Below, piece by piece: positions 1,610-61,628 of a stretch of DNA of 64,000 bases (the stretch's first letter is position 1; every line of letters starts with the position of its first letter). Source of the DNA: Hydractinia symbiolongicarpus (Eukaryota > Cnidaria > Hydrozoa > Anthoathecata > Hydractiniidae); contig NC_079888.1 of assembly GCF_029227915.1 (NCBI RefSeq), positions 14,863,001 to 14,927,000 of the forward strand. Reading direction: 5' to 3'. The translations under genes and the position numbers were made by a program. The notes under the pieces were generated by a model. That model did not search any database, was not told the origin of the DNA, and saw only the letters and a program-made list of their open reading frames with translations.

Positions 1610-4600
1610 TTATCGTTTTTTCATTCTGTACATTCGGCGTTCGTATTTCAGTCTGGTCTGGACTTGCATAATTTTATACTTTTGCAGAATTTCTCTACCA
1701 ATTTCTGATTTACTCAATTTTTCCAGTATGCGTTCAGCAGAAATTGGACCACCTTTTATGATGTCAAAACAAAGACTTTTGATTTCATTGGTTTCAATAG
1801 AATCAAACAATTTCTGCTGACCGGAAAGATTAGACGATGTTGTTGGTGGTATTACGTCAGTCGCGATAGACGAACAGTCGTCATGCTCACATTGCTGATA
1901 AAATGATGGATCAACGGGAGGACAAAGTTCAAGAGCTGCATTTTCTTTTACTTTTACTTGATCTTTAACGTTGCTACTTGTACCTGCATCGTAAATAAAA
2001 TAGGAACGAATTTTGTCGTAAATCTGTTTCTCAGATTTAGAGATGTCTAGTAATGGCAATTTTTCCCTGATCATCGAAATATTTATGTATTGCGCAGCAA
2101 TTTCTTTTTCAAAGTATTGCAACACTTTTGCCTCCTCGTCTTTGCTCCACTTGTTTGGTTTGGATGGTGTTGAATTTGGTCTTGGTCTTTCAAAGACAGA
2201 ATTTATAACGTTTATTCCTGCAACGGCTTGCTTTTCGCGCTCTCTAAGGCGATACACTTTCTTAGCTGTGGACAACGAATGTGCAAGCAAATCAGCTACA
2301 GGCTGTGCGTTATCTGGTTGCTGATCATGGACGCGAGTTGTGATGGATTTGCGTATTATCGTAGTGTTTATGTTCCCTTTTGGCATTTCAAAACCATCGT
2401 AAACTCCAGAGCGTGTCCAAATGGAGTGTATTTGTTTACTGACACTGCCAGATTCCAACGGTTTTCCATTCCAAGAAACAAACACCTGATTTGCCTGTCC
2501 AGGTACCTGTGGCCTTAGGTATTTAACAAATAATTCCAATAATCTTGCTTTTTGGACAGGGATGCAAATTACCGCTGGGCCATGCGTACTTTTTGTTTTG
2601 TGGTACTTTACCTTAATGAGAATATTATGACCGCTGTCATCTAACTTGCGCTTTCCAAATTCCTCCAAAGTTAAATTGGATGCTACACCCGCTCTGTGTG
2701 CATTTTGCAAAGCGATAACAGTCATCAAGTAATCACGCACGTTGGTGTATTCCAACATGGTGAAAACTTCGCTTTCTGATGCTGTCCCTAACAGTTTTAC
2801 CGCATTTCTGGCCAATTCGCTGCATTCAAATGTTGCCCATTGGTCTGGACTGACTAAAAGCTCCATTTGAGCTTCTTCTCTGTCCCAACGTTGCTCATCG
2901 ATGACTTTATTATAAGTTTTACGCCATTTATGTAAGCGTAATTTCGCGGTTATAAAATCATCCACACAAAGTTCAGGCAACTCCAAACCTTCACTGACTG
3001 CAAATTCCATGAATGAAATTAGCGAAGACATGTAGTGCTTGGAGGTTGCCGGCTTGCTTTTCTTGTCTAAGTAATTGACAAAAAAATCGTCTCGGATCTT
3101 ATTCTTCTTAAATAGATTAATAAGCTGGCCCCCCAAAACATTTACCACTGTGCGTACTTCGCTAACAGCTTGCAAGGAACTTTTCCTTTCACGTTGCCCA
3201 CCATCTGGGGACATCAGGTACGCCAGAAACTGTTGCATTGTGCCATTATTGTCAAAGCTTGTGCTGCTTTCGCAGTCGTTGCGTTCTGCTTCAGTAACCG
3301 GATTGTTGAAGTTCGTCTCAAAATCTACACTTGATTCTTCCCGAGGAGCTTCGTTGCTTTTGGAAACGGGACGGGAGGAACGTAATAACGCATAATACTC
3401 TTCATTAGTCTCCAATTTATGGTAGAGTTGGAGATGCTCTGACATTTTTTTTACCACTCTCAAACATGTTGGCAACGGACATATGCGAGGAACATGATAG
3501 TCTGGATAAGTTTTTTTATCTGCGCCTCCTTTTTTCCTACTGGGTGTTTCAAGGTGCCAATTGTAGGGCTTTCTCAGACTATGGCTTATCACTATCTGTT
3601 TAGACTTTGCTTTTGTCCATTTGTGTTTATCCTCCACGTGACGAGGCAAATTAAATTTACTTTCCCCACATTCTGGACAGATCTTCTTCTCCTTTTTGTA
3701 CGTCCTCTTTTGGCCCTAAGAGTAAAAATAACAAAGTGTACGGATTTTATAGATAGATCTATATTTATAGATGCTATTACACAGCAAGCTGAGAACTTTA
3801 TGATTACATATCATCATACAAGTTATTTACAATTTTCGTCCGTCACGATAGTAAGGGAGCTAAATAATTAAAGTTCTTACCACCACAACATTTGTTTTAA
3901 TAGATCCCTCTTGTTCTGCAATTTTCTCGTCATTTTCCTTCTCCCTTTTCTTTACTTCCGTTGCTATTATACTTGATCGTTTCATAACTATAAAAGAATT
4001 TTATTAAGTAAATATAAATTTTCACAGTAATAGTCTTGGCAGGCTTTTTCTAATAAAAAGAATGATAAATGACAGCAAACACTACCAACTGTTTTTGTGT
4101 CATTCTGAGCAATAAAGTATTAAATCAACAAAGAAAACTGTGATAAGCGATTAAAGAAAGAATCCCAAATTCACAAAACGAAAATTGTTCTGAGAAGTAC
4201 AATTCCCTCAAACATCGTTGACACTTTTTCTAGGTAATAGCAATCCTCACAATTTTTCAGTGGAGATAATTTCAAAACAGACACTACTACAAACAAGTGA
4301 TTATCAAACTCATAAAAGACATAGGTAAATTTCTATTTTGGTTCGAGGTATTAGTCACAACAGGGTACTGAAACCAACAAGTTTTCTTACATCTCCGTTC
4401 GAGCATGTCATAAGCTTCTTTGCCTCTATCTTTACCTCCCTCAGCCAGGTAAAAACGTGCCACTGCAGGGCTAACTTTGCAAAAACCAATAGTAGTCCAC
4501 AACACCACTATGTACTGCAAAACATCCACAACAAGTCTCTCTTGGTTATCGCAGTCCACAAATTTGTTAAGGACCACCTTCATAGAATCTAATTGGGTGT

Positions 4601-11666: not shown

Positions 11667-13653
11667 CTACAAGCGCTCATATTTAAGCCTTGTTTGTATT
11701 TGCGACATGTCAAAGTTTTGTAGTACACGTTTTGCAACAGAGCTTGATTCGAGTGCACGTTCTACTCTATTGATGGATTTTGGTCCAGAACGAATGATCT
11801 CGGCACACTTTTCGACAATGATGTTAGCTTCAACATTCGAAAAAATTTTTTCCTTCCCAGAAACTGTATTTTCATAATCATCATCTTCACTTTCTTCGTC
11901 AACATCTTCGTTTTCACCATGATGCTTATCTACTATATCAAAAACAAAATTGTGTTTTCGCAACAAGAGCACACCACACACTATTAAGCCTTAACTAAAG
12001 AAATATTGGATCGGGCTGCTTTAAGTGCATAAACTTTCGCAACAGAAATATTCGCGAATTGTAAATTTCACAAAAAAATTGCATTTCGCGAGTTTCTGCC
12101 TGTGAAAGCCTCAGCGCTTTTTTCAAAATCAATTAAGCTAGCAAGTAGCACAACACAAACATACCTCCTTTTGACACAGATTGTTTGTATTCAGTTGCAA
12201 TAGAGGAGCATGAGTTGTCAACAGCATCATTACCATCTATTAAAAGATAGGAAATGAATTCTTTTAAATTTAATAAAAAAACAGGCACAATTTTCATGAA
12301 AATCTTTATATTTATACTAACGTAAAACAAATAAAAGTCACCAATACAACATATAAGAAGAAAAATGCGATAGTTTTAACCTACCTTTCTCCTCTTCCGT
12401 GACTCCATAGCGCCAGTAGCTTCTCAATTTATCTAAAATCTGCCTATCAGACAAATGAATAAGATGGATAAACTTTTCACGTAGATTACGTACATCGCCA
12501 ATTCTGACAGATTTCGCAGTCAAAAACTGCTTAAATAGAGTCTCCAACTCCCCGACTTCGGCATCAGTCCACGTTTTCTTTTTTTCGTAAATATTTGTTT
12601 TGCCACGTTTGTTGAAAGTTTCCTCCAAGGCAGCTGTACCCTTAAGGGCATACTTTTCCTTTTCTATCAAACGGTAGCATTTTTTGGAGGTGTTCTCAGA
12701 GTGCGTCAACAGGCTAGCAACATATGAAGCTTCACTTGGATTTTTATCTTCAATGATGGTGGATCCAGACTTTTGAAATATATTTGAAGTGATGTTTTTC
12801 CTCACTGGCGGATCGTTTTCACCATAAACACCGGACCTTTTCCAAGTGCTATTAATTTGTTTTGATATTGCTCCAGATTCTAACATCTTGCCATTATATA
12901 AAACAAAAACATTTTCAAAGTCACTGTGTATCTGACTGCGAATTGAATCGAAAAAAATTAAGAGCTGTTGGTACAAGGTTTCTCTCGTACACAGATTAAC
13001 AGGACCGTGTTTCCTAAATGTCTTGTGACGTTTTACTTTAATAATATATTTACCATCACGAAATACAGCAGCCTTCACCTCATCGATGTTCATGTTGCTA
13101 GGCACGCCAGACCTCTGACAATTAATTATAGTTATTTCCGTTATGAGAAAATCCCGTATACACGCATATTCTTGACGAGACAAGGTGTTTTCTCGGTAAG
13201 GGCTACGAAAATTTTTAATTATCGAGATAGCCTCCTTTGCACTGGCAGACTCCTCATACCGTTGGATCTGCTCAGGCGTGATAAGCACTTGTTGCTCCTC
13301 CATCTGTCTCTCAAGCTGCTGTATCTCTACCGTTCCATTATTAGATTTGCTCCATCGAGATACACTAACTTTCATCCTTAAAATCATATCTGGTGCTATT
13401 CCAGGTAGATGGATCTCCTCAGTAAGGAGAAAGTCATAGAAGTGTGGCAGTGTCAAAATATACCGTTTAATGGTTAAAGCTTTGTATTCCTTTGTCTTTT
13501 CGGCATACGTTGTCAAAAAGGTGTCGCGAATTTTATATTTTCTGACTAAATCACTGGGATATGAGGAATCCAAAGCTGTCCAAATATCTCTCAATTGCTG
13601 CTTTGACTGAATAGCACTCTTTTGGCAACTCTTCCCTCCATCAACTTTCATAA
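11667..13653 (-). pseudogene. 5'-truncated paralogous tyrosine recombinase gene
   Basis: Likely exons are 12385..13653 (open to 13663), 12165..12236 and 11667..11928 (or 11931), all with GT..AG introns and matching phase 1. The product is colinear with the recombinase at 1.6-3.7 kb from its DGG motif onward: Arg in NCQRSG, His in LLTHS, Tyr in KKCYRL, a Myb/SANT-like region (KTWTDAEV) and the shared C-terminus QTRLKYER. Where this gene has two introns, the paralogue is uninterrupted, so one copy gained or lost introns. There are no zinc fingers and no N-terminal domain. Upstream of DGG the frame runs into BEL/Pao reverse-transcriptase sequence, so the first methionine (13663) belongs to that element. 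Frame and catalytic residues are intact over about 420 codons, so a truncated product is possible. Confidence 0.7.
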
Positions 13654-13860
13654 AGTCATCCATGTAAAAATCTTGTTTGAGTGCCTTGATGACTTCGTTT
13701 TCAAAGTTGTTCTTTTCGTAGGTTGCTATTTTCTTTAACGCCCAGTTGGTACAACAGAGCGAATCTGCCTTCCAAAAAAGGTTGAAATTTTGTAATCTTC
13801 TATTTTGTCGATTTTCTTATTCCTCTAAACAAACCTATGAGCGTCTCGATCTGCTGGTCG
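13654..13860 (-). mobile_element. BEL/Pao retrotransposon reverse transcriptase fragment
   Basis: On the minus strand one frame reads CCTNWALKK, then EVIKALKQDFYMDDFMK. This is the layout of the BEL/Pao RT: (C)xNxAL, then a short spacer and the YxDD catalytic box (here YMDD). It runs in frame into the truncated recombinase gene at about 13654. Only some 70 residues are recognisable. Insertion of this element, or a recombination at it, probably removed the 5' part of the recombinase gene. Confidence 0.65.
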
Positions 13861-17466: not shown

Positions 17467-17571
17467 ATGTCTACGCGGAAATAAAGGGAGGTGTGTTTGC
17501 ATATCGCTATACTTTTACCGCATGCACTGATTGCGTTTTGCTTCTTTCAATATAGACGTATAACAAAGAGA

Positions 17572-17991
17572 ATGTCTGATATTGCACGAGTATTTGACAA
17601 TGGCTCTGCAGAATACGAACAGATAGAGAAACCTATGGATAGACTCCAAGTCCTGAAGGAAGCCCTACGGAAGGGCAAGGGCCATCTCCTACCTGAAAAA
17701 TGCACAGAAGGGTTTGTCAACAAGGCTCCAGATGAGGCCATCGACAAAGTCCATAACGTGTATGTACAACGTGAGCTTCAAGAGAAAAGGGAGAATACCA
17801 CAAAGGCGTTGATTACCCATGTTATTAGCCTGTATGCAAATTTGAATGGGAACTTCGTCGACATCGACAATGTAGATGAATTACGTCGAGATATCGAAGA
17901 ATACCCTATAATCCGACACTCTATGACAGATCTTGGTATCCTGGTGTACTGCACCATAGGAAGGTGTCTTGCCCCAGTCCTGGTGGCATGA
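17572..17991 (+). CDS. Polinton hypothetical protein, 139 aa
   Basis: One of the few unbroken frames in the element. It starts at an ATG 105 bases after the polymerase remnant, in the same direction. The product is mostly charged and helical, with an acidic middle and a short hydrophobic C-terminus (LGILVYCTIGRCLAP) that could be a membrane anchor. I do not recognise the family. Position and orientation suggest one of the accessory genes found between polymerase and packaging genes. Confidence 0.5.
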   Translation: MSDIARVFDNGSAEYEQIEKPMDRLQVLKEALRKGKGHLLPEKCTEGFVNKAPDEAIDKVHNVYVQRELQEKRENTTKALITHVISLYANLNGNFVDIDNVDELRRDIEEYPIIRHSMTDLGILVYCTIGRCLAPVLVA

Positions 17992-27935: not shown

Positions 27936-29190
27936 AAGAATTGTGTTCCTTTATATGAGCATATTCTTCAGAGGAGCAAAACCTCTAGAATTTAAATTTT
28001 AAGACTTAACTGGTCGAGTTTATCATTGTGCGTGCACTTTGTAATTTTCATTCTCATTTTTATATATTTTTTTTATATTTCATGCTGTTATTAGTGAAAG
28101 TTCTAAAGATCCGCAGAATTCTGTCATTGAAACTTCGTATGCGTTCTAAAAGAAAAATAGAAATTCTTTTATATAAAACAATTATACTTCAATTTCATAG
28201 TTTAGCTTTATTTTACTAACCTCTCTAAATTCGCCTACTATATCTCCTGTACAGAAGGATCGAAGATAGGATAGCATCGAGAGTGGAAGTAATCGAATTA
28301 TTTTTTTTACCAAGAGGTTTCTAGCCCAATAGCAATAAAAAGAAAATCGAATTTTTCTTGATGTTTTCGATGTTTTCTTTCTAATATTTACGGCATCTTT
28401 TAGTGTAGAAATGAGCAGGCTGCCATCGTATCTAGATAAAATAAAAATTGAATTATTTGAAAGAATGTAAACAAGGTGAAAGCTTGTTTATTGAACAAAT
28501 CAAAACTGCTTACCCTACATCTCTCATGTTTTTTCTAACTTGTTCTTCCAACGACAAAAGATTGTCTGGGTTTCCTTTGCTGTTTTTTCTGCAGTGTTTT
28601 ATTTGCTTTTGACATTTTTATATTCTTATTGTCACAAATATTTTCACAAAACAAAAATGAAAGTTGAATAGAAACGTTTTCTCGATTATTCTGTTTTTGA
28701 ACATTTATATTCATATTATGCCCTCAAACCCCCTGACGTGACAAAAATATTATCATATTAGAAACAAATGCTTTGAGAATTATTAATTTTGTTTTATTAT
28801 GACAGGAGGCATTCGTATGCACAAAAAATGTTGAATAAGAGTTCTGCAAGTTCACTTTAAATCACTAATGAATAATTAAATATTCTCCTTATTTAATTCT
28901 TTTTTATATTAATATATTTTTGACATTACATTTTTCTATTTATGTTTGATCTGTGACCAGTCCGTTTATGTTGTTAGCTCTGTCTTGTGTCGTATTGTTT
29001 GTGATAGAAGGATTGCTTTTTCTCTTTACGATTTTCTTAAAGAATAGTTTTGATCCAAGTTGGACAGTACTCATGCTTTTAAGAAGCAAGAAAGTGTATT
29101 CAGCACCTTCTTCTGGGAGCCTAATCCAAGTTTTGACAACCACCGTCCCTGGAGACAAGATACTTCAGTGCAGCTTGCGTTACTGTAAAC
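27936..29190 (+). mobile_element. Retroelement 3' tail, copy A
   Basis: 27936-28065 is nearly identical to 31565-31690, and 28891-29187 to 32119-32417. Between these blocks this copy has about 400 more bases than copy B. No coding part remains; its left edge is cut by the Mutator-like fragment. A weaker relative of the first block lies at 46668-46790 after the protease-bearing element, which ties all three to one family. Confidence 0.75.
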
Positions 29191-29414
29191 CTTTTTCATT
29201 TTCAATTTCTTGCAAACAATCACAGGTCGAAATAAAAAAGTTATCCCTGAATAATTTTTTTGTAAAATTTTTAGTTGCCTACTCTTCTTAAAAGGGATCT
29301 GTTTGAAAAATTCATTAGATGACGTCATGAAACTTTCGTTTTCGGCTTCACGAGTGTTTGATCTCTATTCGCGTGTCTCATTTTAATTGTCAGCGAATTT
29401 GGATGCAAAAGTGA

Positions 29415-29985
29415 TTGAAAGAGAAAGGAAAAAAAAAAGGTTTTATTTTTATGATCTCACCCTCTGTCAGAAAGAATGGAAATTCTAGAATCCATCATGC
29501 TTCCCTTCTCTTTGGATTTAAGGCTCAACCCGGACATGCCCTATCTGGTTTAAACAGACGTGCCTTACAGTCCATCTCGTTGGTAAAAGAGAAAAATTCC
29601 TCTATTCAACAACTGTAAAACGTGTCAGACTTAATGCAGAGGCAACATTTACAAACTTCGCTAGGCAATGTTAAATTAAAGTTAACAACATTACGCCGGG
29701 GAGAACGGAACAGTAAAAAGCGATAGAAGATCCGCAATGCAAACCGTGCATTTGGTAAGAATCCTTAACAGGCTGGTAATGATCTGCTGGATCCCAAATG
29801 CTCTATTAGGCTTAATGTTCCTAAAGAATCCCTAGATCCCCACAAAGCTTCAGTGTTAATTGATCCCTTATACGAGATACCGCTTTCGACCCTTCCTGGT
29901 TTGCCTAACAGTCGGGGCGGTGAGTTGGGAAATTTAGGAGAACTTCTGATATTCACACAGCACAATCGTATATATAAAAGCATTT
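29415..29985 (+). pseudogene. N-terminal/pre-RT region of a non-LTR retroelement
   Basis: Decayed frames read FGKNP-QAGNDLLDPKC, LNVPKESLDPHKAS and PLSTLPGLPN. I recall this pattern (NPY.AGK.LLDP...HK) from the region just before reverse transcriptase in cnidarian and fish retroelements. Several stops and at least one frameshift. The RT and endonuclease that should follow are absent in this copy, which passes to the protease fragment at 30.6 kb, so an internal deletion is likely. Confidence 0.4.
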
Positions 29986-30307
29986 AAAAAACATTGACTG
30001 GCCTTCTTGAATTGTCTTGCTTGTCCTATTTTTAGAAATGACGTCACAGCATAAAAAAGCTAACAGCCACAACTATAAAACCCCACAGAAAACATATTGC
30101 CGTGAGCATTTTTTGTCGAAATGTAAAACAAAATGGGACTCAATAACGCTGAAGTTACTTTCGGCTCCGTAATTATGATATTAATGCGCATAAATCTTGT
30201 CACCAAACCTCTGTATGAGAAAATATCAAATATTTGACAGGAAATACACTAACTAATTTATTATCTAACATATACTTAAAAACCAAGAATATTAATGTTA
30301 ATCTGAA

Positions 30308-30478
30308 AATAAAGTTTCTTCATCTTCTGTGTCATCCTCACTTTCGTCATCAGAACTATCGACTTCAACATCATCTTCGAGAATTATCTCGTCGTTGTCT
30401 GATCCTTGATCAACACAGTTACATGAGCATAAATCTATGCAAGGCAAACACAAGTTTCTTTGGCGCAAGATGATGACT
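30308..30478 (-). pseudogene. Acidic C-terminal tail of an unidentified transposon protein
   Basis: Minus-strand frame with CLPCIDLCSCNCVDQG, followed by a strongly acidic tail (EDDVEVDSSDDESEDD) and a TAA at 30308. The Cys cluster before an acidic end is common in transposon-encoded proteins, but I cannot name the family. Confidence 0.35.
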
Positions 30479-30583
30479 TACGGCAAGAGCAAGAAACCAT
30501 TTCCAATAGAGTATCTGGTGCAGGTCGTCTTAATAGCCAAATGATCTCTAGTTTCTCACCGTTGACATTCCATCCATGTCCAT

Positions 30584-30999
30584 TTGAGCGAAGAATTGTC
30601 AAGTGTCAACTCGTACTTCTGTCACTACTGCAATAGTCACCAAACTGCAACAGTTGAAAAAGAGGTCGCAGAGTGCAGTTCAATTTTGGTTCTGCAATTA
30701 AAGCGCTTTGCCTATAACAAAAGTTTTGTGTCCAAGGTTTGTTTTCCTGCCGCATCTTACCTGGGCACCGTTTCTATACCTATCACCGTAGACAGTGAAG
30801 TCTCTTGTCGCAAGCACTTCAACTTAAGGGTTGTAATTAATCACGCTGGAAATTTGAAAAATGGCCATACACTACTGTTGCTTATAACCAAGTGCATGGT
30901 AAGTGGTTTCGATGCAACGACAGAGCAGTGGTCCCTTGCAAACAAAGCTTGCTTAATGGTGTACAACCTTACATCCTTTTCCTTGAAGAGCTTAGGTAA
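30584..30999 (+). pseudogene. Ubiquitin-specific protease (C19) C-terminal part, copy B
   Basis: Contains the zinc-binding CxxC of USPs (YFCHYCNSHQTA), LVLQLKRFAYNKSF and the histidine-box region NHAGNLKNGH. A one-base deletion directly after GH puts the rest in another frame, which ends FLEELR and TAA at 30999. The Cys box is missing upstream. It is colinear and about 55-60 percent identical by eye to 45827-46231. USPs cleave ubiquitin from proteins; this copy is inactive. Confidence 0.8.
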
Positions 31000-31035
31000 A
31001 TTGCAGTCAGCACCACAACTTCCGGCTTATGTGAG

Positions 31036-31341
31036 CAAGGGGGTTTGACTATTCTTATTTTTTTTATTTATTTTTATTTTTTTTATTTTTTTGTAGTCTT
31101 GTCTTTGGAGAGTGACGACTCCACCTATTACCCCAGTCAAAATAAAAGCGAAAAACAAAAGAATTACGCCAGCGAGGAGGGTTTGACTGTACCAGGTCCT
31201 ATCTTTGAAGAGTGACGACTCCACTTATTACCCCAGTCAAAAAGGAAAAAACAAAAAAAAAAAACATTATGTCAGCAAGGGGGTTTGACTGCACTGATCT
31301 CTTCTTTGGAGAGTGACGACTTCACTTCTTACCCCAGACAC
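31036..31341 (+). repeat. 101-bp tandem repeats in the retroelement 3' region, copy B
   Basis: Three units with the core CTTTGGAGAGTGACGACTCC at 31103, 31203 and 31304 (the second has GAAGAG). Each is followed by TATTACCCCAGTCAAAA, an A-rich spacer and AGCAAGGGGGTTTGACT. The same unit appears twice at 46286 and 46387 after the other protease copy. Confidence 0.9.
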
Positions 31342-31387
31342 ACAAGATTGTACAGAGTAGAACAGATGAAAAGTTATGGATAAAAGA

Positions 31388-31449
31388 AATGTCTAGTTCC
31401 TGCTGAAGACTGTTCGCAGACCTCTTTTGAGGTGACTCAGCTAGACATT
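31388..31449 (+). ncRNA. Conserved stem-loop in the retroelement 3' region, copy B
   Basis: AATGTCTAG pairs with CTAGACATT 62 bases on, enclosing TGCTGAAGACTGTTCGCAGAC. At 46482-46542 the same structure exists as GATGTCTAG and CTAGACATC, a compensated change at the base of the stem. This points to selection on RNA structure. Confidence 0.6.
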
Positions 31450-32420
31450 TTGGGCACCTTGGTTCAGGAATATGAGTCGAAACCCTTGTACCCTTTACAG
31501 AAGTCCTGTCCTACTCTCTCTGTCTGTTTGTTTGTTCAATTTTTGTGCCAATTATCTTCTTGGAAAAAGGAAGAATTGTGTTCCTTTAAATAAGCATATT
31601 CTTTAGAGGAGCAAAACCTCTAGAATTTAAATTTTAAGACTTAACTGGTCGAGTTTATCATTGTGCGTGCACTTTGTAATTTTCATTCTTCATTTACGGT
31701 ATATTTTAAAAACGATTAAAGTTGAGAAAAATGATACACGCGATTTAAATTCAGACTATGGTGAATATGTGGACATATTTTTTTTCTGTAAACTTGTAAA
31801 CTTTTGAGACAAATCCCTTCACAGTTGGCCACACCCACTTTTTAAGACTTTCGACTATACTTTTTTAATAATAATATTGTAGAACAAACTTTTATATTAA
31901 CAAGTACATGTATGCTTTTATAATGTTTTTTTAAAGGAAAGTTGAAAAAAATGCTTTATACAGAAGAGGTGTAATTTACAATACCGCTACCTTAACAACC
32001 CTGCCGTCCTTAGTCAAAATATCGACAGGGTGGTCCTGTCGTGACAACCTCCTGTGTAAGGCTGAATGTTGGGGCCCTGTAACACATGTGGAAAGCCAGA
32101 GTCACACAGGAAGGTTTTATTTAATTCTTTTTTATATTAATATATTTTTGACACACATTTTTTCTATATCTGTTCAAACTGTAACCAGTCCGTTTATGCT
32201 GTTAGCTCTGTCTTTTGTCGTATTGTTTGTGATAGAAGGATTGTTTTTCTCTTCACGATTTTCTTAAAAAATAGCTTTAGTTCCAAGTTGGACAGTACTC
32301 ATGCTTGTAAGAAGCAAGAAAGTGTATTCAGCACCTTCTTCTGGGAGCCGAATCCTAGTTTTTACAACCACCGTCCCTGTAGACAAGATACTTCAGTGCA
32401 GCTTGCTGTATTGTAAAGTT
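31450..32420 (+). mobile_element. Retroelement 3' tail, copy B
   Basis: Continuation after the stem-loop. 31565-31690 and 32119-32417 match copy A at 27.9-29.2 kb. No coding capacity. The second block includes a partial open frame (SKKVYSAPSSGS) on plus in both copies, but it is short and probably not coding. Confidence 0.7.
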
Positions 32421-42062: not shown

Positions 42063-44163
42063 CTTTGTTTTCTTTTTAGATAATGTCACGCCTGAAAGTA
42101 GTATTGCAACAAATGAAATTGTCAATAATACTGAAAATATATATGGTATATTTCTTGAATTATATATCCACTAAGTTAACAATAACTACCCAGCTGCTAA
42201 AGAGCATTCAATCTGGCAAAGCAAGCTAGTAATAAAGTAATTAAAATAAATATAATTACATCTATTTTAAGGTACTGAAATCAGCAATGAAATTCCTAAT
42301 AGAAGGGAAGATGTGTTCACCAGGAGCACTGAGTTGTTAAGGACTATGATTCGGCCAGTTGGTAGTAAAAAATAAAAAAATAAATCTTGGTTTGACCGAA
42401 CAAAATCTAATAAAGATAAGTGGCGAAGAAATAGACCTTTAATTTGGGAAATTATGTTGGCAGTAGAAGAACTTACTGGGTTTTGTTCTGTATGCAATGA
42501 CAGAGGTGCAGTCATTAGATGTGATGATTGCTGTAACAGTGCTCTTTTTGGATGGAATTCAACAACGTATAACTCCGTTGGAAGCAATAAATGATAACAT
42601 GGACATTGAACCAACAGGCATGTATACAGTAGCATTTATTGTATAATGATTTAGTGTAAGGCACTGCTTTTATAACTTTCACACCTTCATTGATAACTGT
42701 GCCAATAGGAACTGAAGAGGTTGTCCTAACTAAATAATTATAATGTAAATATTGTTTTTTATGCTGCAGTAAAATCCGTAAAGCTCAAGTGTTTCTCTTG
42801 TGAGCATTGCGATGGAAAAAACATAAGACAAGAGGATACTGATGATATCTGTATGGTGGTTACATTGAAAGGTTTGTATGTCAGATAAACATATGCGACA
42901 AATAACGTTATTTTCAATATATTCATATTAATTTATATCCATGTGTATTGTATATTTATAGGGCGGTATGACATTTTCAAATATAGAATTTATGTGAAGA
43001 CTGTGGCGGCATTCCCATTTGATATTAGCTCAGTGCTAAAATCAGGGTATTGGCCTGGGAGTCCGTGTTCCATTAATCATCTGATTAAAGAAGATGTTTT
43101 TATATTATGGGATGCATTTCGTAGCAGAATGCCTGGTAGCTCTTTAAAGGCATTCCTTACATCATTATGTGATATTGGTGAATACTATGGAAGGGTACGT
43201 TTATTGCTTCAATATTTTTTACTTTGTTCTATATTAAGAAATGATATATAGTTCATGCATATTTCAAATTCTGAAAATATTTTGTATGCTCAATAAAAAA
43301 TTTGCTTACGTGTATATATATATATACATTTTCTAGACAAACATGATCAATGTCAACACATTCTCATCGTCATTTAAAGAATGGAAATATTGAAGACATG
43401 AGAAAGACGTGATTCAAAAGATGAACTGGCTTGATTGTCCGCCATGTACAGTAAAACAACACAGGTGTCATGTAGATGGAAACTGTAAATTATACAGATA
43501 TTCCTCCTCCGGCAAGTAAGACTAAACTAACAAGTTTTTGCCATATAAGTACCAGTTTTATTATTCAAGTGCAAATTTCTATCTTAAAGGTATTTTTAAT
43601 GCATTAAGTATAAAAGACAATTATTAATTTTTATAAGGCGAAGAAGGCCATCATGATATGGTGAATTGCTCTTTTGGTCAAATGAAAAAGTATATTCATA
43701 TATGGAACAACTATATGAAAATTGCTCTTTTGTAAGCAAGGTTTGTGTTTTTTCTTAAATGTATCTCTTTTCATGTTATCTGTAATAGTAAATTGAAATA
43801 TACTTTGTAATATCCATATATTTGAAAAATGTGTTTTGATTTTACTTAACAAGGGTGACACACAATGTGGGGGCGATGGTCAGCAGCAAGAAATGTGAAA
43901 AGAAAAGCGAAATCGCTAGATAAAACAGGCCTTGAAGGCATGTTATAGGACAGAAAGCTGTAAATATGTTCCAAGGAGAGGTTTTTAGGTATTCCTTGTT
44001 TATAATGAAGGAATTCGTGATTCCAAACAGTGTGACATTTTATTTTGCTGATGTAATATGTAAACTTTGGAAATTCATCTGCAAACATGCAACTGACATT
44101 TCAATTGCAATTAAACCAGCTCTATCTATTATGCATGCTAAGGCACATGCCCACGACTGCCAA
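42063..44163 (+). pseudogene. KDZ-superfamily transposase, intron-bearing, broken
   Basis: Exons with good sites: 42080-42145, from 42272 (TAA in frame at about 42372, then CSVCNDRGAVIRCDDC, the CxC cluster typical of KDZ proteins), 42961-43195 (SGYWPGSPCSINHL, WDAFRSRMPGSSLKAFL) and 43337-43516 (FKEWKY, CPPCTV, HVDGNCKLYR). The last, 43854-44163, contains SLDKTGLEGM, GEVFRYSL, FADVICKLWKF and MHAKAHAHDCQ. LDxTG and the DVxC block carry catalytic acids of Kyakuja-Dileera-Zisupton transposases. Stops and frameshifts in the last exon. The 3' remainder is lost at the junction with the retroelement. Confidence 0.7.
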
Positions 44164-44507: not shown

Positions 44508-45255
44508 ATGCCTTCATGCGTAATTCGCTTGTTTATTAGTCTGCGTCGTGTGTGGTTCTTATTTCAAAAGGATTTTAGGTTTGCATCAGACTGGTCGAGC
44601 TGGTTTAGGGCTCTTACACCACAAAAATATATCACCAAAAGGCACTTATGTCATGACTCGGTTTTAATAGTTTTGGTTAAGGCATTAAAAGAGTTTTTTG
44701 TATCATATGAACCTCTTAAGGTTTCCAAGTGCAACGAAATTAATTTCATTCCAGCCGGTCAATCACCATCTAAGAAGAGTCATACAAAGTGTCCAGGCCT
44801 TCTTCACCTTGCTTCCGATTGGAAAATACTGTCAGATTTAGATTCCGTTTTAGTTGTTCCACCATACATTGCAATAACACAACTACGCCCAGACGTTATT
44901 AAAAACTGTAATTATGTTAGAACTGACTTGTCCATGTGAAGAGAATACGGAATATTGGCACAAACGAAAGCTTAACAAATATTCTTCACTATGTTATGCT
45001 ATGAAAAACAATGGATGGATCGTGCATTTCTTTGCCATTGAGGTGGGTGCAAGGGGTTTCTGTTCAGAATCAGTAAGGACCTGTTTTCGTCGCCTTGGTT
45101 TCCCTAACAAGCCTTTGCGTTCCCTATTAAAATCCCTAACTTTTGCCTCCATGAGTGCTTCTTTTTACATCTGGATGTCTCGAAATTCTACCACTTGGGT
45201 TGAGCCTGAAAAAGCTCCAATCATTCCTGAAGTTTGTTACAAATATGGAATGTGA
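44508..45255 (+). pseudogene. Restriction-like endonuclease domain of a non-LTR retroelement
   Basis: First frame: HLASDWKILSDLDS, then AITQLRPDVI. A frameshift near 44910 leads to LELTCPCEENTEYW, KRKLNKYSSLC, IEVGARGFCS and FKR-like CFRRLGF. The order PD, about 15 residues, E-L-T, then K..KY fits the PD-(D/E)XK endonuclease at the C-terminus of R2/NeSL-like elements. The reverse transcriptase expected upstream is not present; KDZ sequence is there instead, so the copy is 5'-truncated. Its stop TGA at 45253-45255 overlaps the ATG of the protease frame. Confidence 0.55.
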
Positions 45256-46231
45256 GAAATCAAAAAACCCTGAGAAATCTTCCGCAAGTGCCACAAACTC
45301 TTGTAAAATCAAAAAACCCGAAAAACTTGCTACAAGGTCTTCCAAAACAACAGGCGCATTGCCATCTAACCCGGATTTTAGGAATAGCGGTCTAAAAAAC
45401 TTGGGAAACACATGTTATGCAAACTCAATCTTACAATGTTTTTATAACCTTCCAAAAGTTAAAGAAGCCATTTCTGGCAGCAAAACAACCTCAAAGTTAG
45501 GCGAAGCATTTGTAGGTGTTTTTCAAAGTTTGGCTGTTTTTAGAAGTCCAGTTGATCCCTCCCATTTTTTTGCGTGCTATGCAACATCATATCTCAGCTG
45601 CGAAGGGAAGTGCATTTAGTATCTTTGCTTAGCACGACGTCCCCGAGGTTCTTGAATATCTCCTACCTGGTCTGCCATTAGTCTTTTTAGTATTGGCATC
45701 AAGACATGAACCACTTGCAATTCATGTCATATTACCAGCTCCTCAGAAGTTATAACACCATGCATCCAACTTTCTCTGCACCCTACGTTACAATCTTCTT
45801 TAGATAAGTTCTTTGAAAGCGAGGAGTTGTCACACACCAATGCCTACTTCTGCCATGTTTGCAACGCTCATCAAACTGCTCTAGTTGAAAAAGAGGTAGT
45901 GTCGTGCGGTTCCCATCTCATTTTACAGCTAAAACGTTTTGCCAGTGCCAACGGCCTTGTGTCAAAAATTGTCTCTCGTATTACTGCTTACCCTGGTACC
46001 CTTTTCATACCTTTTACCGTAGATGGAGAAGTGAAATTTCGTAAAAATTTTCAATTAAGGGCTATTATCAACCATTGCGGCAACTTAAATAATGGTCACT
46101 AAACAACCATAGCCTTCGACCAAATGGTTCACAGGTGGATACATTGCAACGGTAGAGCAGTAATTTTCTGTGATGACCGCCTTATTAACAGTCACGAGTC
46201 ATATGTTTTCTTTTTAGAAGAGCTGAGGTAA
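45245..46231 (+). pseudogene. Ubiquitin-specific protease (C19), copy C
   Basis: ATG 45245 starts a Lys/Ser-rich leader, then the Cys box GLKNLGNTCYANSILQC near residue 45-60. A frameshifted middle follows (stop at 45617), then YFCHVCNAHQTALVEKE (zinc CxxC), LILQLKRFASANGL and the His box NHCGNLNNGH. TAA takes the place of the tyrosine that follows GH. The frame then reads on to FFLEELR and TAA at 46231. Length, about 325 codons, is near that of a minimal USP core. Cellular USPs remove ubiquitin. The overlap with the endonuclease frame and the retroelement 3' end following it show that it travels with the element. Confidence 0.75.
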
Positions 46232-46790
46232 GAATATTTTAACCAGAATGAGTCAGCAATTGTGCTTGGCTACACTCAGTCTTGTCTTTGGAGAGTGACG
46301 ACTCCACTTATTACCCCAGTTAAAAAAAAATAAAAAAAATAAAAAATATAATATTAGCAGGGGGGTTTGATCACACATGATCTTGTCTTTGGAGAGTAAC
46401 GACTCTATTATTACCTGAGTTAAAAATAAAGAACAGCAAAGTTGAACAGAAAGTGATCAAAGTTTATTATAAGAAGATAGGGATGTCTAGTTTCTGCTGA
46501 TGACCGTCCGCGGACGTCTTCGAGGTGACCCAGCTAGACATCTACTTAGGTTCAGAAATATTAGTTGAAACCTACCTACCCTTAGTTAAAGTTCTGTTCA
46601 TCTTTTCAAATGTGTGTGTCCTTTTTATTTTTTTATATTTTTTTAATTAATTCCTTGTAAAAAGGGAGAATTGTGCTTTTTGAGGCATGTTCTCTAGAGG
46701 AGTACAACTCTAGCTTATTTCCAAAGACCTAACAGGTTGAGTTCATCATTGCGGTGGCTTGCCACCTCTTTGTAAATTATTTTTTTTTTA
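46232..46790 (+). mobile_element. 3' region of the protease-bearing retroelement, copy C
   Basis: Two 101-bp tandem units (cores at 46286 and 46387), then the stem-loop at 46482-46542 (GATGTCTAG/CTAGACATC around CGTCCGCGGACG). Then comes a tail block at 46668-46790 that is a diverged relative of 27936-28065 and 31565-31690. No poly(A) end was identified. Confidence 0.7.
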
Positions 46791-60719: not shown

Positions 60720-61628
60720 ATGTTGTGTTTAAGAACTTCTGTTATCGTCTTGGTATTTTGGATGTTAGCACAGGTATGAAATTTAATATTAATCAAAAAT
60801 CCCTAATGTTGAATTATGTTTCCGTTACTATATGTATAACTTCTTCTCGATTTATATGTGCATATTACCTAATTATAGGAATCCTATCAAACAAAGTTGT
60901 GCTGGGCTAGCAACAAACTGCCTCGGTACATTGCAGCTAGTTGCATGACGACCAACGAAATTGACGTTACAATAAAGCCACGATGGAAAAATAATCTTCT
61001 AAAGCTGGTGGGAAAGTTTAAAATCAAACTGGAAATCGTAAGCCAAAGTTCTACCGATGGTTTCTCATTAACATTTCCATTTATTTTCACCAAATCGAAT
61101 GCTAAAAAAATTAAGGCATCATTACAGAGATATATCACTTGTCTGAAGGGTCAATCAATTGGCGATGCCAATTGTTCTCAGCCAATTGTTAAAAACCGAG
61201 CAGGGGATGACAAACAAGGAAAAGTTCTGATCGTTTTGAAAAAATATAAAGCAAGATATAGGTTTGATGTTGACCGTCTTGTTGTAAGCTTTGAGAAAAG
61301 AGAAAAGCAACTGCGAATAAAACGATCAGCGACTTCACCAAACAATTATGGTAATGTTACGAAAACTGGAACTGGTAAGAATGGAACAGAAGAAGTGAGC
61401 CTTTATAAACAATGCAAAACTGGCACCTCGGTATTTCGCTGCACAGGTATAAAGGCAATCAAATCCGAAGGAAGGGGATCACAAGAAAAAGCAAGAACCA
61501 AACGGGTAGCATTTATGCGCCTTAAGATATATGGTGTACAAAAGCAACAACAAAGACGTTCACTGGATTATTGGAGCGTTCTGAAGGTTGTTGATCTTGT
61601 CATCACTGGTTTAACAACAATATTGTAA
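60720..61628 (+). CDS. Secreted basic protein, two exons, paralogue 2
   Basis: join(60720..60773,60879..61628), 268 codons. Exon 1 encodes a signal peptide (MLCLRTSVIVLVFWMLAQ); donor GTATGA, acceptor TTATAG, phase 0, the same intron position as in paralogue 1. Shared blocks: ASCMTTNEIDVTIKP, KSNAKKIKASLQRY, CLKGQS...CSQPIVKN and RFDVDRLVV, then RIKRSATSPNN. The C-terminus differs (QQQRRSLDYW) and ends with a hydrophobic stretch (VVDLVITGLTTIL). Basic and probably cleaved at KR sites. Function unknown; defence or matrix roles are only guesses. Confidence 0.75.

Follow-up and report, generated by a model that had tools for sequence, protein, structure and literature searches.

A retrotransposon lineage of Hydractinia symbiolongicarpus carrying a predicted ubiquitin-specific protease downstream of its endonuclease

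Results

We analyzed a 64,000-nucleotide stretch of Hydractinia symbiolongicarpus DNA (NC_079888.1, positions 14,863,001 to 14,927,000 of the forward strand, assembly GCF_029227915.1; hereafter, the window), in which a first-pass annotation had placed, at positions 44508 to 46790, a retroelement whose endonuclease is directly followed by a C19 ubiquitin-specific protease (USP). These coordinates proved correct, and the locus (44585–46790, + strand; copy 1) is a dead, 5′-truncated copy of a retrotransposon encoding a restriction-like endonuclease (RLE) and a USP, assigned here to family D. Intact relatives elsewhere in the genome encode a reverse transcriptase (RT), the RLE, and the USP in a single open reading frame (ORF), and it is almost certain that the element is an RLE-type non-long terminal repeat (non-LTR) retrotransposon carrying a USP.

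Copy 1 aligned with the intact 1,426-residue element protein as a single collinear tblastn chain (E 7e-69) split over three frames, in which residues 892–982 match positions 44610–44900, residues 988–1087 match 44899–45198, and residues 1093–1421 match 45245–46210. The pre-RLE region and the RLE itself, of PD-(D/E)XK type, occupy 44610–45198 (+) with one change of frame near 44.9 kb, and the motif RPDV followed by LELTCPCEE is still legible, this PD...E signature bearing out the class of endonuclease first proposed. Sequence comparison and reading of the frames delimit a linker (45199–45376, +), which includes the junction at 45.25 kb, and a decayed C19 USP domain (45377–46210, +). The frame at 45155–45616 matches Pfam UCH with an E-value of 7e-10 and 39.3 bits, above the cut-off of 23.9, and the frame at 45710–46099 with an E-value of 5e-5 and 23.5 bits, just below it. 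Cys box (LKNLGNTCYANS) and His box can both be read, as can the CxxC pairs. The collinear chain, the UCH matches, and the legible boxes all uphold the order of endonuclease and protease. The domain also contains in-frame stops, one immediately past the His-box histidine, and a G where the catalytic Asp would lie. No RT core was found in copy 1. Its 3′ untranslated repeats (46279–46790, +) match the genomic loci L003, L006, and L007 and the 3′ region of a second copy in the window. Furthermore, the junction at 45.25 kb is not specific to this locus, since genomic relatives at 92–93% identity span the junction region (window 44908–46041 versus L020:1149–10, 92.5%; window 45171–46306 versus L005:1153–1, 93.4%). 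The protein P0050 (LOC130628696) matches window positions 44902–45267 at 90%.

Open, full-length copies of the element were found in the Hydractinia assembly (480,894,487 bases, 76 contigs). Searching it with the Pfam UCH model produced at least 150 matches, several of them in open frames of 1,422–1,426 residues counted stop to stop, and 12 loci were retrieved for close inspection. Six of these (L009, L010, L011, L012, L015, and L017) hold a 1,426-residue frame in which 1,420–1,426 residues are those of L009, and the 1,423-residue frame of L018 shares 1,421 residues with it. L019 (1,422 residues) and L020 (1,379 residues) form a second family at ~56% identity, and the frames compared at L013, L014, and L016 are shorter (967, 1,345, and 472 residues, respectively). 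In the L009 protein, Pfam recognizes RVT_1 at residues 339–609 (E 8e-16) and UCH over its full profile length at residues 1137–1423 (E 5e-32), with a zf-RVT match at 828–892 that scores 24.2 bits, below its cut-off of 27.5. As no Pfam model matches the RLE of L009, its assignment relies on the invariant P, D, and E, on the preceding CCHC, and on its position. Intact single ORFs combining RT, endonuclease, and USP are thus present in the genome, and the retroelement interpretation offered by the first-pass annotation is supported overall. Two Hydractinia RefSeq proteins, P0069 and P0145, are identical to the element over the compared part; P0145, annotated as 'ubiquitin carboxyl-terminal hydrolase 2-like', is the RLE-USP end of this retrotransposon, lies on a contig of 35,952,230 bases, and has 13 member sequences.

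To place the element among its relatives, protein searches were performed with an RLE+USP query (68 proteins), an RT query (235, best 120 kept), and a USP-only query (196, best 120 kept), and 267 sequences (264 proteins and three Hydractinia ORFs) were scanned with profiles. Since proteins P0001–P0068 came from a query that contained the USP, whereas P0069–P0144 came from the RT query, the sample leans towards USP-bearing proteins. An RT was detected in 140 of the 267 sequences, in the order RT-RLE-USP (80), RT-RLE (54), or RT only (6), and in no further order. The linker between RLE and USP measures 12–441 residues in the 80 complete proteins. Among the 54 proteins that lack the USP, 51 stop 0–36 residues past the RLE, indicating that the USP was added cleanly at the C terminus. 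The three others extend 69 (P0056), 83 (P0074), and 468 residues past it (P0124, with no Pfam domain there). The C, C, H, and C of the zinc knuckle and the P, D, and E of the RLE are unchanged in all 63 rows, and the F/Y-x-DD motif of the RT is equally constant (first Asp, 53/53; DD pair, 58/58 covering rows). The catalytic residues of the USP (Cys box, His box, and Asp) and its zinc residues are kept in all covering rows but for one His, in P0039, whose USP breaks off at that position. Six USP-bearing relatives are long (P0052, P0081, P0085, P0096, P0100, and P0117; 1,868–2,151 residues, with 676–837 before the RT). Pre-RT C2H2 zinc fingers are found in P0052 and weakly in P0117, and DUF7128 lies below cut-off in P0100; the Pfam scan recognized nothing in the pre-RT regions of P0081 and P0085. 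Two relatives, P0026 and P0122, are labelled as belonging to a 'Pseudomonadales' metagenome-assembled genome, labels that are probably binning errors.

The association between the three domains was then evaluated across the genome with the best 149 of 1015 USP candidates, the best 150 of 649 RLE candidates, and the best 94 of 2662 RT candidates, the 149 USP places being what remained of 150 rows after one weak second piece of a match (E 3e-4) was dropped. At least 63 of the 149 USP places have an RLE match no more than 800 bp upstream on the same strand, against 0.025 expected under random RLE placement, and at least 36 have an RT match within 4.5 kb, 30 of them together with an RLE and six with the RT only. 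Neither was matched at the other 80 places. The linked counts are floors, because they rest on these best candidates, among which the decayed copies of the window, for example, do not appear. Upon inspection of 11 of the 80 unlinked places, four (L005, L007, L022, and L024) were found to carry upstream RLE or RT-RLE sequence, two (L001 and L002) resemble host USP genes with weak similarity to the element, and five (L003, L021, L023, L025, and L026) are USP-only within the 1.5–2.5 kb viewed. USP copies without a nearby RT or endonuclease, which the first-pass annotation had regarded as contrary evidence, therefore exist in part, in a pattern that fits 5′ truncation. The family C copies among them begin at separate points of the linker, at L007 positions 1420 (L003), 1332 (L025), and 1385 (L026), and L021 and L023, from other families, likewise begin in the linker region. 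The closeness of these breaks is uninformative, as the places were picked for a USP match without an RLE; 5′ truncation combined with this selection effect is the likely origin of such starts, and a solo-USP derivative is possible. L003 has an open USP frame of 299 residues. On the strength of the single ORFs, the linkage counts, and the recurring junction, we rejected the idea that a host USP had come to lie beside an RLE element by chance.

Comparison of ten family A loci revealed that all end within a few bases of a shared 3′ sequence (...GTAAACCTTTTTCA), with variable 5′ ends and no poly(A) run at the 3′ end. The unit of L009 measures 5,369 bp. In all seven loci that reach the unit start, a 5′-truncated piece of another unit directly abuts it (111, 204, 291, ~480, 758, 1,032, and at least 1,729 bp); of the remaining three, L013 and L014 are truncated inside the ORF and L016 ends at the edge of the retrieved sequence. 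At least 40 tails share 98–100% identity (the best 40 of 296 candidates), and among these, at least six places have tails spaced 5,364–5,387 bp apart, one of them with three in a row. By eye, neither a target-site duplication nor a shared target was evident in the ten loci, nine of which have a true 3′ flank, and the Pfam scan of the intact ORFs detected no integrase. The 3′ regions of both window copies (46279–46430 and 31096–31340) and of L003, L004, L005, L007, and L009 share a recurrent motif of ~35 bp (CTTTGG...ACGAC...CCACTTATTACCCCAGT). It could form a short hairpin, with TGGAG/CTCCA in some families and TGGG/CCCA in others, and is possibly recognized by the RT; a scan for it was too loose (at least 879 matches) to serve as more than a pointer.

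The second copy in the window (copy 2; 28889–32417, +) is an internally deleted member of family C that likewise has a tail repeat on each side, in a pseudo-LTR-like configuration: a piece of an upstream unit at 28889–29199 (+; 88–90% identity to the tails of L009–L018) and its own 3′ tail at 31991–32417 (+; ~86% to family A tails). In between lie a coding remnant with stops that precedes the RT core (29454–29912, +; 85% identity to P0075 over 29523–29912), the 3′ half of the USP (30586–31002, +; 92% to L003), and the 3′ repeats (31096–31690, +). By tblastn, residues 111–262 of the L009 protein correspond to 29454–29906 and the USP to 30590–30978, the latter also matching Pfam UCH (E 3e-5, 24.1 bits). 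Nothing remains of the RT core or the RLE, the USP lacks its first half, and the frame shifts at the His box. This locus had been reported, at 29.4–32.4 kb, as a second copy with the same protease and 3′ repeats; a USP and matching 3′ repeats are indeed present, but with a DNA identity of ~64% between their USPs, copies 1 and 2 represent different families.

Phylogenetic trees were built to follow the history of the USP. The RT tree comprised 101 rows, rooted on 19 rows including fish RLE elements, with nine distant rows and one duplicate omitted; the 82 other rows formed a clade with support of 100/100, in which 58 have a USP and 24 do not. The USP tree comprised 83 rows (74 from elements and nine cellular, some of the latter joined or untrimmed), and a branch with support of 96 separated the nine cellular USPs, as one group, from all element USPs. 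A single origin of the element USPs is possible on this tree, in which the basal element USPs are weakly placed. Patristic distances in RT and USP were well correlated (r = 0.83 over 56 rows, permutation maximum 0.28; 0.76 over 47 main-clade rows), and the nearest neighbor was identical in both trees for 27 of the 47 main-clade rows.

Elsewhere in the window, a CxC3 KDZ-transposase-associated cysteine cluster (42889–43248, +; Pfam PF18804, E 7e-11) lies just 5′ of copy 1, so that a KDZ transposon probably adjoins it upstream. Frames of 701 and 492 residues at 1610–3715 (−) and 12338–13816 (−) have no credible Pfam match, and two matches fall below the Pfam cut-off, a SIR2-like one at 60879–61625 (+; E 0.05) and a RhoGAP one at 17485–17988 (+; E 6e-4). 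An Rfam scan of the window gave no match.

Discussion

At the level of sequence, the domain order, the open and near-identical genomic copies, the variable 5′ and near-constant 3′ ends, the conserved catalytic and zinc residues of the USP, and the correlated divergence of RT and USP are established. The two window copies belong to what reads as a large and recently active lineage, whose single protein comprises an RT, a DNA-cutting domain, and a USP.

Several known systems share part of this organization. In R2, the RT is followed by a zinc knuckle and an RLE, the same order as here, and the best solved relatives of the element RT are R2 chains of the PDB (three best E-values, 2e-19 to 8e-19). 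However, R2 has no USP, and the nine 3′ flanks of our element do not look like one site by eye. Moreover, since the USP-less relatives P0058, P0060, and P0127 match R2 at similar E-values, nothing places the element inside R2, although it may belong there. In Penelope-like elements and HeT-A, a full unit is joined to parts of the unit upstream, which yields pseudo-LTRs, and the direct fusions observed here are alike; Penelope-like elements encode a GIY-YIG endonuclease and HeT-A encodes no RT, whereas our element is of the RLE type. Membership in the Penelope group was rejected, as the Pfam scan of three intact ORFs revealed no GIY-YIG domain and the RLE motif is present. The element USPs share their fold and catalytic boxes with the cellular USP2, USP8, USP36, and USP15, but are separated from cellular USPs by the branch with support of 96 and have ~28% identity to USP2.

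The closest precedents for a protease are NeSL and Utopia, described as RLE non-LTR elements with an RT, a zinc finger, and a C-terminal RLE, and reported to include an N-terminal Ulp1-like protease in nematode NeSL and in Utopia-1_TSP (PMC4640811). Some of these families therefore resemble our element in being of the RLE type with an extra cysteine protease of the ubiquitin/SUMO type in the same protein, but here the protease is a C19 USP, lies C-terminally past the RLE, and occurs in most of a broad clade. Consistent with this, no Ulp1 or OTU model was matched in 20 proteins scanned with Pfam, the proteases present being C19 and C-terminal. Fusions of mobile-element proteins to OTU, Ulp1, or C19 domains have also been described, including a Trichomonas vaginalis protein with transposase_11 and Peptidase C19, and Ginger1 DNA transposons carry Ulp1 and OTU (PMC2836005); those are DNA transposases, unlike the retrotransposon reported here. 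In passages of another article (PMC7599744), the word 'deubiquitinase' is confined to the title of a Helitron paper that it cites. The literature searched, which was judged mostly from abstracts and had Repbase, Dfam, preprints, and subscription papers outside its scope, yielded no non-LTR element with a USP.

We propose that the element produces one polyprotein, RT-zinc knuckle-RLE-USP. As in R2, its RLE would nick DNA and its RT would use target-primed reverse transcription to copy the element RNA. The C-terminal USP would be an active deubiquitinase that remains attached to the RT-RLE protein and strips ubiquitin from it and from the ribonucleoprotein, allowing both to escape the proteasome until chromatin is reached and integration takes place. 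By analogy with HeT-A and Penelope, transcription would initiate within the tail belonging to the upstream piece and continue through the next unit. We estimate the probability of this explanation, an RLE-type element whose polyprotein includes a cis-acting, self-protective USP, at roughly 0.6. Its evolutionary extension appears to us an even bet: an old, widespread RLE clade would have acquired C19 in a single event close to its base, lost it on about two occasions, and otherwise kept it catalytically intact since retrotransposition needs deubiquitination, with tandem units launching transcription from their 3′ tails in the manner of HeT-A and every mobile unit thus bringing along part of its neighbor.

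Several observations count against these proposals. Both copies in the window are dead. The USP state changes eight times on the RT tree, and well-supported branches force at least seven changes; a quick RT-RLE tree of 111 rows likewise gave eight. Three changes remain when P0074, P0075, P0082, P0084, and P0124, whose labels were judged doubtful, are left unlabelled, a number that fits one gain and two losses without proving them. For P0075, a family C model with no USP, the doubt is well founded because L007, nearly the same up to and within the RLE, continues into a USP. In addition, two clades (15 and 4 rows) stop 0–36 residues past the RLE, making the USP dispensable in some relatives. The USP also diverges faster than the RT (median distance ratio, 1.68). 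Finally, close pairs of family B have ratios of nonsynonymous to synonymous substitution rates (dN/dS) of 0.52–0.85 where computable, three of their USP pairs show four to five amino-acid-changing and zero synonymous differences, and these few changes reveal no constraint.

The USP of intact copies is, as predicted from sequence, very probably an active deubiquitinase; for the protein that was folded, the lists of fold matches were filled by USPs, in keeping with a USP fold in the model, with the RLE end barely probed. Self-protection as its main role is a tentative choice, for which we would give slightly less than even odds, and would account for three features: a USP in fixed linkage with Pol, conserved catalytic residues, and few sequences resembling the ubiquitin tail at which cleavage might occur. 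The tethering of the USP to a DNA-nicking RLE in one polypeptide would also suit an action on target chromatin, where removal of ubiquitin from H2A/H2B, PCNA, or FANCD2 would open the site or steer repair. Such proteases were proposed to act in transposition and repair by the authors of the Ginger study (PMC2836005), and the fold matches include USP21 and USP1, although any USP would match both; with no common sequence seen by eye in the 3′ flanks compared, we consider this role unlikely. The same can be said of a counter-defence factor reversing ubiquitin deposited by a host silencing pathway, since the faster divergence of the USP expected from an arms race would be accounted for by weaker constraint as well.

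The position of the USP, behind a linker in a long polyprotein, might instead suggest a processing enzyme that cuts the protein from which it derives, comparable to the aspartic proteases of LTR elements, and the linker of P0145 (residues 65–111) has a predicted local distance difference test score (pLDDT) below 50. USPs cleave after the C-terminal Gly-Gly of ubiquitin, however, and [LIVMF][RK]xGG occurs in 4 of 80 proteins, L009 being devoid of Gly-Gly. Nor does any of the 20 scanned proteins have a ubiquitin-like domain above the Pfam cut-off (APG12 lies below it in two, E 0.04 and 0.004). Polyprotein processing as the main role was rejected on account of these scarce cleavage sequences and is highly improbable. 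Least probable of all is a passenger, whether a captured host domain without function or a set of host USP genes next to which elements happened to insert: the five USP-only places among the 11 inspected, the RefSeq name given to one such frame ('ubiquitin carboxyl-terminal hydrolase 2-like'), and the lack of visible constraint in close pairs would agree with it, but single ORFs, catalytic conservation across the deep tree, the RT-USP distance correlation, and the recurring junction all oppose it.

Taken together, these results suggest that the elements interfere with ubiquitin tagging by the host. They also call for caution with RefSeq genes named 'ubiquitin carboxyl-terminal hydrolase-like' in such genomes, which can be transposon fragments, as P0145 illustrates. 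Since open copies exist, ubiquitin control of retrotransposition is directly testable through a single catalytic-site change. If the proposal is true, elements of the long interspersed nuclear element type would have added to Ulp1 another class of protease from the ubiquitin system and retained it through deep evolutionary time.
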